NCBI RefSeq assembly: GCF_023684405.1
Contig: NZ_JAGSOI010000026.1
Location: 1 to 33,458 of the forward strand
Origin: Methanococcoides seepicolus
Lineage (GTDB): Archaea; Halobacteriota; Methanosarcinia; Methanosarcinales; Methanosarcinaceae
DNA: 33,458 bases
Reading direction: 5' to 3'
This document shows positions 6,848-22,651 of the stretch, piece after piece; the first letter of the stretch is position 1; each line of letters opens with the position of its first letter. A model generated the notes under the pieces. That model saw only the letters and a program-made list of their open reading frames with translations, did no database searches and was not told the origin of the DNA. The position numbers were made by a program, and so were the translations under genes.

Positions 6848-8605
6848 ATGTTCAAGTCTGATAAGTGTGTATATAAACAAGATCTAATAGCATCTATCGC
6901 CTTGGCAATACTTGCAGTGATTTTTATCCTTATTCCACCACTGAACGAAACTCCATTGCGGATAGTCTTTGCCCTGCCTCTGATATTTTTCATACCAGGT
7001 TATGCATTTATCGCCATGATGTTCCCAAAAAGAGACATCAGCAACATCGAACGTTTTACATTGAGTATTGGATTCAGTATAGCCATAACGGTCTTTAATG
7101 GCTTTGCATTAAGCCTGACACAGTGGTTATTCAGACCAAACTCCATATCAATATCATTACTTATAATAACGGTCATTTTTGCCGTACTTGCATATCCTGC
7201 CAGAAGAAGGCATCTGGAAGAAGACCAATTCACATTTTCAGTTCACGGATTCATAGAGTCCATCAGATCAGATGATGAAAATGTTCCTGAAAAGGACCGC
7301 ATCCCACCTGAGATCGAGAAAGCGCTAATTATCGCCCTTGTGGTATCCATTATCATAGCAGCAGGGATGCTCGTCTACGCAAAGACCACACAGGAAGAGG
7401 AACAGTTCACAGCACTGTACATACTTGGACCTGAAGGAATGGCTGAGAACTACCCCACAAACGCATTCCTCGAAGAACCCATTACAGTTACCGTGGGTAT
7501 CGAGAACTATGAGAAGCAGGATGTGAACTACATACTTCAAATGCAGCTTGATGGCGAAGTTCTTCAAACGTTGGACGTTACATTATCTGATGAAGAAAAA
7601 TGGGAAAAGGACCTGACATACCATCCCGAACAGATGCGAATGGGACGATCGAAACTTGAATATGCACTTTTCAAGGAAAAAGTATCACTCAATCCATATA
7701 GCTCTGTAAATCTGCAGATAACACATGAATATCCGATCGAATACTTGCAGGAACTGGCAGAAGAGGAAGAAAAAGGATCATCAGATATTCTCCATGTGCT
7801 TGAGAACTATGACATGGAGCAAAACACCAGTTGGAGCTTTAAGACCAACGATAAGAACTTCAGTGGGTCATATGTTAAAGGAGAAGGAATATTTGATTCC
7901 CAAGCATTTGTATTCAAGCTTCCATACGAAGGAAAATTGCCATTCTACAGTGGCCAATATTATGAGATGTCCCAGAATTTCAGATCGGATAAAAAGGGAA
8001 CTTTTGTATTGTCACTGTTTGTGAAAGACACATACAAACCTAGAATTGTCGAAATTAATCAGACACAATTCAAACAGATACTTGTCAACAATATATTAGT
8101 TTGGGAGACTGCGGTCGGTGGAGATTATAATTGGCAACACGTTCATTTACCAGTAATATTGAACGAAGGAAACAATCTCATAACATTAAGAGCGATCCAG
8201 AGGAGTAATAACGATGTCCATCCTGTAGAAATAATATGGGACGAAGTGACAATACTTCCAATCTCGGAACTTTCACCTTACTCAGAGAACGGACTTCTCG
8301 AACTCAACCCCCCACGATCAGAAATGGTCCCATTGCCAATAAGCGTAAATACAACTGATTTTGAAGTCGAATGGAATGGTACAGATATTGGAAGCGGTAT
8401 TGAGTACTATCTTGTAGAATATAGTATTGATGGAGAAAACTGGCAGACATGGTTATCCGAATCAAATGAAACTTCCGCAACATTCACGGGAGTTAATGGA
8501 AATGATTATTATTTCCGCACCCAAGCAATGGACGGAGCAGGTAACTGGGAAATTGTCCATGATACACCAGATACGAATACCACCGTTGACCTTACTGAAC
8601 CGTAA
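6848..8605 (+). CDS. DUF1616 membrane protein with C-terminal Fn3-like domain
   Basis: A 585-residue protein. The N-terminal third matches the DUF1616 style: several transmembrane helices (about 13-33, 37-57, 73-95, 100-118) with the PLIFFIPGYAF signature and a NIERFTLSIGFS segment, then a cytoplasmic stretch and a further helix at about 158-177. The remaining roughly 400 residues are extracellular and beta-rich. They end in a fibronectin-III/reprolysin-like module (SGIEYYLVEYSIDGENWQ ... YFRTQAMDGAGNWE), a type often seen on archaeal surface proteins. Function is unknown, and cell-envelope assembly or glycan handling is a guess. The C-terminus stops abruptly at TEP, and the following 140 bases look like broken continuation of coding sequence. 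Confidence 0.82.
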   Translation: MFKSDKCVYKQDLIASIALAILAVIFILIPPLNETPLRIVFALPLIFFIPGYAFIAMMFPKRDISNIERFTLSIGFSIAITVFNGFALSLTQWLFRPNSISISLLIITVIFAVLAYPARRRHLEEDQFTFSVHGFIESIRSDDENVPEKDRIPPEIEKALIIALVVSIIIAAGMLVYAKTTQEEEQFTALYILGPEGMAENYPTNAFLEEPITVTVGIENYEKQDVNYILQMQLDGEVLQTLDVTLSDEEKWEKDLTYHPEQMRMGRSKLEYALFKEKVSLNPYSSVNLQITHEYPIEYLQELAEEEEKGSSDILHVLENYDMEQNTSWSFKTNDKNFSGSYVKGEGIFDSQAFVFKLPYEGKLPFYSGQYYEMSQNFRSDKKGTFVLSLFVKDTYKPRIVEINQTQFKQILVNNILVWETAVGGDYNWQHVHLPVILNEGNNLITLRAIQRSNNDVHPVEIIWDEVTILPISELSPYSENGLLELNPPRSEMVPLPISVNTTDFEVEWNGTDIGSGIEYYLVEYSIDGENWQTWLSESNETSATFTGVNGNDYYFRTQAMDGAGNWEIVHDTPDTNTTVDLTEP

Positions 8606-8912: not shown

Positions 8913-8980
8913 TATTCACAATGTTTAAATCTAATCCTATACAAAATATTAATTATAAATCGTTAAAACGAGGGGGTAGA

Positions 8981-9487
8981 ATGATGAAAGGGAAAATATT
9001 ACTATAGCTAATGGTAGCAATTATAGCCACAAGTGGCACTTCAATGGCTTATGGGGCTGACCTATGGGATGAAACCGGCACGGCAAGTTTGCCACCTATA
9101 GTCATTATCCAGCCAGGTGAATCATTAGTAGTGAGTTACCACATGGAGGGTATCGCTGACCTAAATGAACCCCATGTCTACGAATACGATGTGTCTGTGA
9201 GATCCGGCTCAGGCAGCCCTACCGATATCGAGATTACATATCCACATAATGTGACACCAACATCTGACCCATTCATTGATGTCGGTAATATAACCATTAC
9301 CAAAAATGCAAGTACACCGATGGACACCGTTTATACAATCCAGATCAAGGCTGGCCCACAAGGACTAGGAGCAGTAATTGACGCTGCTTCAAGAACGAAC
9401 GAAGTCCCAGAATTCCCAATAATCGCTCTCCCAGTAGCAACGATCATTGGCCTAGCATTCTTCCTTCGGCGCCGCAAAGGAGAGTAA
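8981..9487 (+). CDS. PEF-CTERM surface protein with in-frame UAG in its signal peptide
   Basis: The C-terminus VPEFPIIALPVATIIGLAFF plus RRRKGE is a PEF-CTERM sorting signal, which an archaeosortase cleaves and replaces with a membrane anchor. The body is a beta-rich domain of about 120 residues. From ATG 8981/8984, after the strong site AGGGGGT (8971-8977), the frame reads MMKGKILL, then TAG at 9005-9007, then LMVAIIATSGTSMAYGAD. That is a textbook signal peptide only if UAG is read through. Translation from ATG 9011 would lack the basic N-terminus and has no ribosome binding site. In Methanosarcinaceae UAG can be read as pyrrolysine. The alternative is a recent Leu (TTG) to stop mutation or a sequencing error. 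Confidence 0.8.
9005..9007 (+). other. In-frame amber codon (possible pyrrolysine site)
   Basis: A UAG codon at position 9 of the PEF-CTERM open frame, inside the hydrophobic core of the signal peptide. The reading frame, ribosome binding site and signal peptide are intact on both sides. No complete gene called in this window uses TAG as its stop, as expected where UAG is a sense codon. Confidence 0.55.
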
Positions 9488-9617: not shown

Positions 9618-10670
9618 ATGGAACTTGAGAAGCTACTTGAAAAATTATCTAATGCACATGGAATATCAGGGTATGAGAATAACGTCAAACAGATAATGGA
9701 AGACGAGATCACACCATACGTTGATGAGACCAGAACGGACAAGATGGGAAATCTCATCGCCACGAAAAAAGGTGATGGACCCACGGTCATGCTGGCAGCA
9801 CACATGGACGAGATCGGCCTGATGGTACAATACATTGATGACAATGGCTTCCTGCACTTTGTGAAGATAGGTGGCTGGTTCGACCAGACCCTCCACAGCC
9901 AGAGAGTTGCAGTCCACGGAACCAATGGACAGCTAACAGGCGTTATCGGTTCAAAACCACCGCATGTTATGAAAGAGGAGGACAGAAATAAACCGGTCAA
10001 GGCAGAGGACATGTTCATTGATATCGGAGCAAAGGACAAAGAAGATGCCATGAAGATGGGAGTGGATGTAGGAACCGCCATATCCATAGACAGAGATTTT
10101 GCAACCCTCGCTAACGGCCTGGTCACATGTAAAGCATTCGACAACAGGGCGGGAATTACAATGCTCATTGATGCCATGAAGCAGATATCCGAAACAAAAG
10201 TAAATGCAACCATACATGCCGTAGGGACAGTTCAGGAAGAGGTCGGGCTCAAAGGTGCACGCACATCTGCCTTCGGACTTAACCCGGATGTCGCCATTGC
10301 AGTAGATGTCACATTCCCCGGAGACCACCCCGGAATAAGCAAGAACGATTCTGCACTTGAAATGGGAAAAGGTGCTGTTATCACAGTCGTTGATGCTTCC
10401 GGCAGAGGACTTATTGCAGACAGGACAGTAATAAAATGGTTAAAAGAGACCGCTGAAGAGAATGAAATACCCTACCAGCTCAATGTAGGTGGCGGCGGAA
10501 CGACCGATGCGACCGCAATACATCTCACAAGAGAAGGTATCCCGTCAAGCACGATCAGCGTACCTACAAGATACATCCACTCACCTGTGGAGGTCTTATC
10601 CCTTGAAGATCTAAGGTCCTGTGCCGATCTCATCGCAAAGGCTGTTCAGAACATCGACAAGTATTTCTGA
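9618..10670 (+). CDS. M42-family (TET-type) metalloaminopeptidase
   Basis: A 350-residue dinuclear-metal aminopeptidase. All expected metal or catalytic positions are visible: His62 (AAHMDE), bridging Asp175 (KAFDNRAG), Glu207/Glu208 (QEEVG), Asp230 (AVDVT) and His321 (RYIHSP). These enzymes assemble into 12-subunit tetrahedral particles that trim peptides released by the proteasome. Homologues are often labelled endoglucanase M or FrvX. The length is standard. The gene stands alone, with a TATA-like element near 9578-9588 and a T-run end at about 10696-10705. Substrate preference cannot be read from the sequence. Confidence 0.92.
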   Translation: MELEKLLEKLSNAHGISGYENNVKQIMEDEITPYVDETRTDKMGNLIATKKGDGPTVMLAAHMDEIGLMVQYIDDNGFLHFVKIGGWFDQTLHSQRVAVHGTNGQLTGVIGSKPPHVMKEEDRNKPVKAEDMFIDIGAKDKEDAMKMGVDVGTAISIDRDFATLANGLVTCKAFDNRAGITMLIDAMKQISETKVNATIHAVGTVQEEVGLKGARTSAFGLNPDVAIAVDVTFPGDHPGISKNDSALEMGKGAVITVVDASGRGLIADRTVIKWLKETAEENEIPYQLNVGGGGTTDATAIHLTREGIPSSTISVPTRYIHSPVEVLSLEDLRSCADLIAKAVQNIDKYF

Positions 10671-14823: not shown

Positions 14824-15831
14824 ATGGTAGAAATGTTCTATGACAAAGACGCCGATCTTGGCGCACTTAAAGGTAAAACAATTGCTGTAATGGGCTATGG
14901 TAGCCAGGGTCATGCTCAGGCACAGAACCTGCACGACTCCGGCCTTGAAGTTATCATCGGCCTTAGAGAAGGAAGCCGCCGCTGGAAACAGGCAGAAGCT
15001 GATGGCCTTAAGGTCATGACCGTAGCAGAAGCTGCAAAAGCTGCAGATGTTGTCCAGATCCTCCTTCCTGACGAGATCCAGTCAAAGGTCTATTATTCAG
15101 AGATCGAACCAGGACTTGAAGCAGGAAATTCCCTTGTGTTCTCACACGGATTCAACATCCACTACAACCAGATCGTACCATCAAAGGACCTTGATGTTTA
15201 CATGGTAGCACCAAAGAGCCCAGGTCACCTTGTAAGAAGAACATACAATGAAGGAGCTGGCGTACCAGGTCTTATCGCAGTCTATCAGGACGCAAGCGGA
15301 AATGCACGTGAAATGGCACTTGCACACGCAAAGGGTGTCGGATGTACAAGAGCCGGTGTCATCGAGACAACATTCCGTGAAGAGACAGAAACCGACCTTT
15401 TCGGAGAGCAGGTCGACCTTTGTGGCGGTGTCGCAAGCCTTATCAAGACATCCTTCGAAGTTCTTGTCGAAGCAGGATACCAGCCGGAGATGGCATATTT
15501 CGAGACACTACACGAGCTCAAGCTCATTGTTGACCTCATCCACGAGGGCGGTCTTGAGAAGATGTGGTATTCAGTCTCCAACACCGCAGAATATGGCGGT
15601 CTTACAGTAGGCCCACAGATCATCAACGAAGAGTCCCGTGAAGCAATGTATGTTGCACTCGAGAGGATCCAGAACGGTGAGTTCGCACGTGAGTTCGTCC
15701 TTGAAGGACAGACAAACCATGCAGTACTTACCTCTATGGAGCGCCTTGAAAGGGAACACCCTGTAGAGGTCGTTGGTAAGAAGCTCAGGGCAATGATGCC
15801 ATGGCTTAACAGCGAACTCAACGAAGAGTAA
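14824..15831 (+). CDS. ilvC: Ketol-acid reductoisomerase
   Basis: A 335-residue class I enzyme. The Rossmann motif [13 protein letters not shown] is near residues 23-35, followed by the cofactor loop [12 protein letters not shown]. The Mg-binding acidic pair lies in [12 protein letters not shown], and further conserved acidic residues lie in [15 protein letters not shown]. It isomerises and reduces acetolactate to dihydroxyisovalerate with NADPH. Arg and Ser residues in the cofactor loop agree with NADPH use. It begins 43 bases after ilvN, with AGGAG (14811-14815) as ribosome binding site. A hairpin terminator follows, so the operon probably ends here. Confidence 0.96.
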
Positions 15832-22408: not shown

Positions 22409-22651
22409 TCTTCCTGTAGCTCTTTTTTTCAATTACTGAGATAGAAGAACTTTATGCATTTCTTTTTTTGAAATATTGCTAATTTTACAGGACCTATTTG
22501 TCAAAATGTACGCTTTGACCGATAAATAGGGTATTTTTCGGTTAACCACACGAATTTTCGGTCAACGATATGAATTATTGGTCAACGAATGAAATTATGA
22601 GATTTTGAACTGAATACGGAGGAAGTGAGAAAGATATTGGAGAAAATGCCA
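22409..22651. other. Convergent intergenic region with T-run and 20-bp repeats
   Basis: It lies between the 3' ends of thiC and the serpin gene. It contains the thiC T-run (22425-22431) and a small array of 20-bp repeats at 22539-22598. No gene found. Confidence 0.45.
22539..22598 (+). repeat. Three tandem 20-bp degenerate repeats
   Basis: Units begin at 22539 (CGGTTAACCACACGAATTTT), 22559 (CGGTCAACGATATGAATTAT) and 22579 (TGGTCAACGAATGAAATTAT). The spacing is exactly 20 bp. A reverse copy of the core, TTGACCG, lies at 22515-22521. The array lies between two converging genes, so a promoter role is unlikely. Confidence 0.5.

Follow-up and report, generated by a model that had tools for sequence, protein, structure and literature searches.

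The window, a 33,458-nucleotide stretch of a Methanococcoides seepicolus contig, contains a gene for a PEF-CTERM surface protein between a DUF1616/fn3 membrane protein gene and an M42 glutamyl aminopeptidase gene (Table 1). Within this gene we found a TAG at 9005-9007, in frame between the ATG at 8984 and the TAA at 9485-9487. Translation of 8981-9487 gives MMKGKILL-stop-LMVAIIATSGTSMAYGADLW...EVPEFPIIALPVATIIGLAFFLRRRKGE-stop, and the read-through product from 8984 would be MKGKILL-O-LMVAIIATSGTSMAYGADLW...EVPEFPIIALPVATIIGLAFFLRRRKGE. At its N terminus, this product has lysines and then an 11-residue hydrophobic core, which leads into a stretch of small residues; next comes an extracellular-type domain, and a PEF-CTERM sorting domain lies at the C terminus. 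The match to TIGR03024 near the C terminus scored 35 bits against a cut-off of 23, which identifies a PEF-CTERM protein; for the body of the protein, Pfam gave no domain match.

Table 1. Features of the locus around the in-frame TAG (positions in the window).
Feature	Position	Strand	Details	Basis
DUF1616/fn3 membrane protein	6848..8605	+	conserved upstream neighbour	Pfam PF07760
Shine-Dalgarno-like GAGGGGG, purine-rich	8970..8976	+	7 nt 5' of ATG 8984; putative function	sequence
Upstream ATG, this lineage only	8981..8983	+	ATC in both close relatives	alignment
PEF-CTERM surface protein gene	8984..9487	+	167 codons, TAG = codon 8, TAA end	TIGR03024, orthologues
Signal peptide MKGKILL-O-LMVAIIATSGTSMAYGA	8984..9058	+	cleavage point approximate	homology to relatives' intact leaders, hydropathy
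In-frame TAG	9005..9007	+	TAC in G009, TAT in G006, TAC in G002 (Tyr)	
ATG 3 nt 3' of TAG, lineage-specific	9011..9013	+	ATA in G009, TTA in G006; possible fallback start	
PEF-CTERM sorting domain	9404..9478	+		TIGR03024
M42 glutamyl aminopeptidase	9618..10670	+	conserved downstream neighbour	Pfam PF05343; locus check across genus

We compared the locus with other genomes, given here as G-numbers (G000 is the organism's own genome; G002, G004, G006 and G009 are among its relatives). The nearest named relative at the locus was Methanococcoides sp. SMBSF09. Orthologues of the PEF-CTERM gene were present in G009 (89% identical), G006 (60%) and G022 (51%), and a diverged PEF-CTERM protein with the Tyr codon TAC at the TAG position occupies the locus in G002. 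Coding homology extended to both sides of the TAG, with 7 codons 5' and 159 codons 3' aligning with the orthologues, and the first 12 codons matched the nearest relative at 94% of bases, compared with 73% over the preceding 60 nt. Codon for codon, the leader shows homology to the intact signal peptides of the relatives (MKGKILLYLIVAIIATSG, MKSKILIYLLVAIIATAG), so chance does not account for a signal peptide that runs unbroken across the TAG. An earlier note on this DNA had proposed an in-frame UAG within a signal peptide, as we found. It had also described a double ATG; both ATGs are present, but only one is the conserved start. Because the ATG at 8981 reads ATC in both close relatives, the alignment places the conserved start at 8984, making the TAG codon 8. 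A purine-rich stretch at the Shine-Dalgarno position is found in the relatives as well.

A mechanical open reading frame (ORF) caller begins the gene at the ATG at 9011, which would give a 158-residue protein and leave the upstream codons and the TAG as untranslated leader sequence. This ATG is in frame and lineage-specific, beside an equally lineage-specific TAG, and ribosomes could in principle re-initiate 3 nt past a stop. We nevertheless consider a start at 9011 very improbable, as the sequence upstream of it has no Shine-Dalgarno-like element at the usual spacing, whereas the start at 8984 is shared with relatives, in which it is plainly the one used. Moreover, a protein begun at 9011 would lack the two lysines and keep only half of the hydrophobic core, and export would probably fail: the best 11-residue hydropathy was 3.0 with the upstream half (counting the TAG as Tyr) and 1.4 without it. 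An N-terminal Sec-type signal peptide is thus predicted only if the UAG is decoded.

Because three relatives of the same genus carry TAC, TAT and TAC at this site, the comparison indicates that the TAG arose from a Tyr codon in the lineage of this species, through the replacement of one base. The Leu that had been expected in orthologues in the case of a mutation was not found. Two more changes in this lineage lie nearby, from ATC to ATG at 8981-8983 and from ATA to ATG at 9011-9013. The organism's own assembly contained no second copy of the locus, either as a paralogue or as a strain variant, and none of the plasmids in the collection has a relative.

We examined the use of TAG in 743 kb of stretches (L-numbers), about 26% of the genome. 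TAG terminates 11 of 535 ORFs of at least 150 aa (2.1%), yet it makes up 18.6% of the stop triplets. Terminal TAGs were also few in G006 (3 of 137 ORFs). By contrast, two genomes of the order that lack pyl genes used TAG to end 10 of 86 (11.6%) and 16 of 92 (17.4%) ORFs, and the difference between this genome and these pyl-less relatives (26/178) was significant (Fisher p = 3e-9). Within the window, none of the ORFs of at least 100 aa that were picked ends in TAG, in agreement with the earlier note, although we counted 28 such ORFs, not the 31 complete genes given there.

Several TAG-ended ORFs in the 743 kb sample proved to be interrupted genes in Pfam checks. The dimethylamine methyltransferase gene (TIGR02368, MtbB, L090) is interrupted within its Pfam domain by a TAG at the canonical pyrrolysine site. 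In-frame TAGs also occur in conserved genes unrelated to methylamines. Two histidine kinase genes (L047:312-2261 and L072:14260-15651) have one each inside HATPase_c, at a similar place, after 'NAVKFTSDRG' and 'NAIKFTPEGG'. A CitG-family triphosphoribosyl-dephospho-CoA synthase gene (L055:9807-10790) has one that is spanned by the Pfam domain, and a class II-type ribonucleotide reductase large subunit gene (L089:11803-13938, G000:C102) has one between the ATP-cone and catalytic domains. We rejected the TAG-bearing reductase as proof of forced decoding, because an intact second copy exists on C24; the copy in G004 is reported with one TAG inside. Judging by these in-frame TAGs, pyrrolysine in this genome is not confined to methylamine methyltransferases, the proteins to which the earlier note had mainly assigned it. 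Because this genome strongly avoids ending genes with TAG and several of its conserved genes are interrupted by one, UAG very likely functions as a sense codon here. The earlier note had found the window consistent with this, and the conserved frame behind the TAG (described below) also speaks for this.

Could the TAG be a single-base sequencing or assembly error, with TAC or TAT as the true codon? The relatives' codons differ from TAG in the third base only, and the genome is a draft of 2.80 Mb in 158 contigs with 4.4% estimated contamination. In addition, an isochorismatase-family gene (L083:15129-15788) is cut by an in-frame TGA at 15387 and is either a pseudogene or itself the product of such an error, so ordinary nonsense changes or sequencing errors do exist in this assembly. 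A coding-potential comparison of TAG with TAA/TGA was swamped by gene-gene junctions, and we therefore read it by eye with Pfam checks. On inspection, the control scan of TAA and TGA yielded gene-gene junctions, one Pfam-confirmed interruption and one unconfirmed. Pfam-confirmed interruptions thus numbered five for TAG (the methyltransferase included) and one for TGA/TAA, even though TGA and TAA triplets together are more than four times commoner. This imbalance argues against an error, as do the intactness of the other genes of the window and the lack of a homopolymer at the TAG, and we regard an error as quite unlikely.

Consistent with decoding of UAG, the full pylTSBCD set for which the earlier note had suggested a search is present. 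The genome encodes tRNA-Pyl with a CUA anticodon (pylT) and matches to PylS (728 bits), PylB (583 bits), PylC (587 bits) and PylD (404 bits), which form a complete pylT-S-B-C-D cluster in one row with MtbA adjacent. A search for PylC with Pfam PF21360 gave a false negative; the NCBIfam equivalog model made the 587-bit match. PylS was found in 11 of 11 genomes of the genus; a search of 23 genomes belonging to other families of the order found no PylS. TAG is also the last codon of pylB (L032:11268-12380), and the next 42 codons have a non-coding score; from the sequence, this TAG may be a stop or may allow a harmless extension. A gene for pyrrolysine synthesis therefore has a terminator that pyrrolysine could read through. 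TAG-ended pylB genes have been published for M. burtonii, M. mazei and M. acetivorans (PMC2933860). Because pylB ends in TAG, UAG decoding may be partial. In M. acetivorans, a reporter amber codon was read at about 20-30% (PMC2933860).

Another possible explanation is that a recent nonsense mutation has in effect silenced a dispensable gene: with UAG serving chiefly as a stop, most translation would end after codon 7 or 8, leaving little or none of the protein. The gene is probably dispensable, because six genomes of the genus lack it at the position upstream of the M42 peptidase gene; with this patchy distribution and its replacement in G002, a loss would be tolerated, and pylB suggests that UAG can still terminate (PMC2933860). 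The sequence behind the TAG bears on this possibility. Between the window and G009 we obtained a dN of 0.06 and a dS of 0.25-0.27 (dN/dS about 0.22-0.24), and with G006 as the outgroup, 7 nonsynonymous and 12 synonymous changes fell on the window branch, compared with 7 and 7 on the G009 branch. The frame 3' of the TAG is intact and under purifying selection, and the window branch is not accelerated. These values suggest that any decay of the gene began only recently, although they would look the same after a very recent change. As the gene also has no second disabling change and TAG is seldom a terminator in this genome, we think silencing unlikely.

We consider it probable that the UAG, a recent replacement of a Tyr codon, is decoded as pyrrolysine at least in part, that the leader containing it is cleaved off, and that the change is tolerated and likely neutral. 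A Tyr codon in the hydrophobic core of the signal peptide became TAG through one base change. Charged tRNA-Pyl would then compete with release factor at codon 8 and win at least in part, pyrrolysine would be inserted, and the ribosome would complete the PEF-CTERM protein. The completed leader would direct export and then be removed together with its pyrrolysine. Because the mature protein would be unchanged by this removal, the change would be tolerated, most likely as neutral drift. Decoding at the TAG, its efficiency, leader cleavage and neutrality are steps that we infer. The earlier note had offered read-through and a fresh nonsense mutation as alternatives; both apply, as a Tyr codon became TAG in a cell able to decode UAG, and only the either/or falls away.

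We saw no sign of selection for pyrrolysine at this site. A search for a PYLIS-like or stimulatory RNA fold behind the TAG found none beyond chance (z = -0.19), and published views hold that no obligatory signal is needed for pyrrolysine insertion (PMC8211752, PMC2933860). Among the other PEF-CTERM leaders readable in the genus and family relatives examined, none contained a TAG; in these genes, TAGs occurred only upstream of the leader starts. Because no other PEF-CTERM leader examined holds a TAG, the comparison favours one-off drift over a conserved pyrrolysine switch. We accordingly give very little credence to the idea that the UAG at codon 8 is a pyrrolysine gate on surface display; the earlier note's suggestion that display could depend on pyrrolysine supply found no support. 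With such a gate, the complete leader may be made and the protein exported when charged tRNA-Pyl is available; when it is not, translation may stop at the UAG and possibly restart at the ATG at 9011, giving a leaderless form. There is room for such a stop and restart because both the TAG and the ATG at 9011, which follows 3 nt later, are new in this lineage, a support that is positional.

The phenomenon of amber codons drifting into genes of pyrrolysine-decoding archaea is known; what would be new here is the place, a signal peptide. By analogy, the closest known case is Thg1 (tRNA-His guanylyltransferase) of Methanosarcina acetivorans, which has a non-essential pyrrolysine at an acquired amber codon (PMC2933860) and is attributed to neutral evolution by Heinemann et al. 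2009, PNAS, as cited in PMC2933860 and PMC3639795. Similar to Thg1, the amber codon described here was acquired in one species, in a gene that is unrelated to methylamines and has sense codons in relatives, and the host is a pyl-bearing member of the same family. Unlike Thg1, which retains pyrrolysine in the mature protein and whose read-through was examined by experiment, the present case comes from sequence comparison and places the residue in a leader that is expected to be removed.

The methylamine methyltransferases MtmB, MtbB and MttB share with this gene the in-frame UAG and the tRNA-Pyl, as the genome's own MtbB illustrates. Their pyrrolysine is a conserved catalytic residue, whereas here it would replace a leader Tyr and is not conserved. 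Like archaeal PEF-CTERM (TIGR03024) surface proteins, the predicted product combines an N-terminal signal peptide with a C-terminal domain above the cut-off; what sets it apart from the other leaders readable in the genus and family relatives examined is the TAG. In a 'Pyl code' reportedly described by Kivenson et al. in Science in 2025, some archaea, Methanococcoides burtonii among them, are said to read every TAG as pyrrolysine, and that work is said to rest on proteomics. The present genome resembles these archaea in belonging to the same genus, in its low use of TAG and in having in-frame TAGs in many unrelated proteins. In contrast to the cases seen by proteomics, a pyrrolysine in a signal peptide would leave with the leader and be hard to see.

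These observations suggest how freely UAG may enter genes in cells where it is decoded as pyrrolysine, and a discarded leader would be a low-cost place to accept the residue. If the codon is decoded, the hydrophobic core of a Sec signal can accommodate a residue as bulky as pyrrolysine. Gene callers, taking the start at 9011, would drop the signal peptide and overlook such cases, and proteomics of mature proteins would not see them either.

Elsewhere in the window, between thiC and the next gene, we noted a short tandem array at 22535-22598 made of units of about 20 bases with GGTCAACGA.
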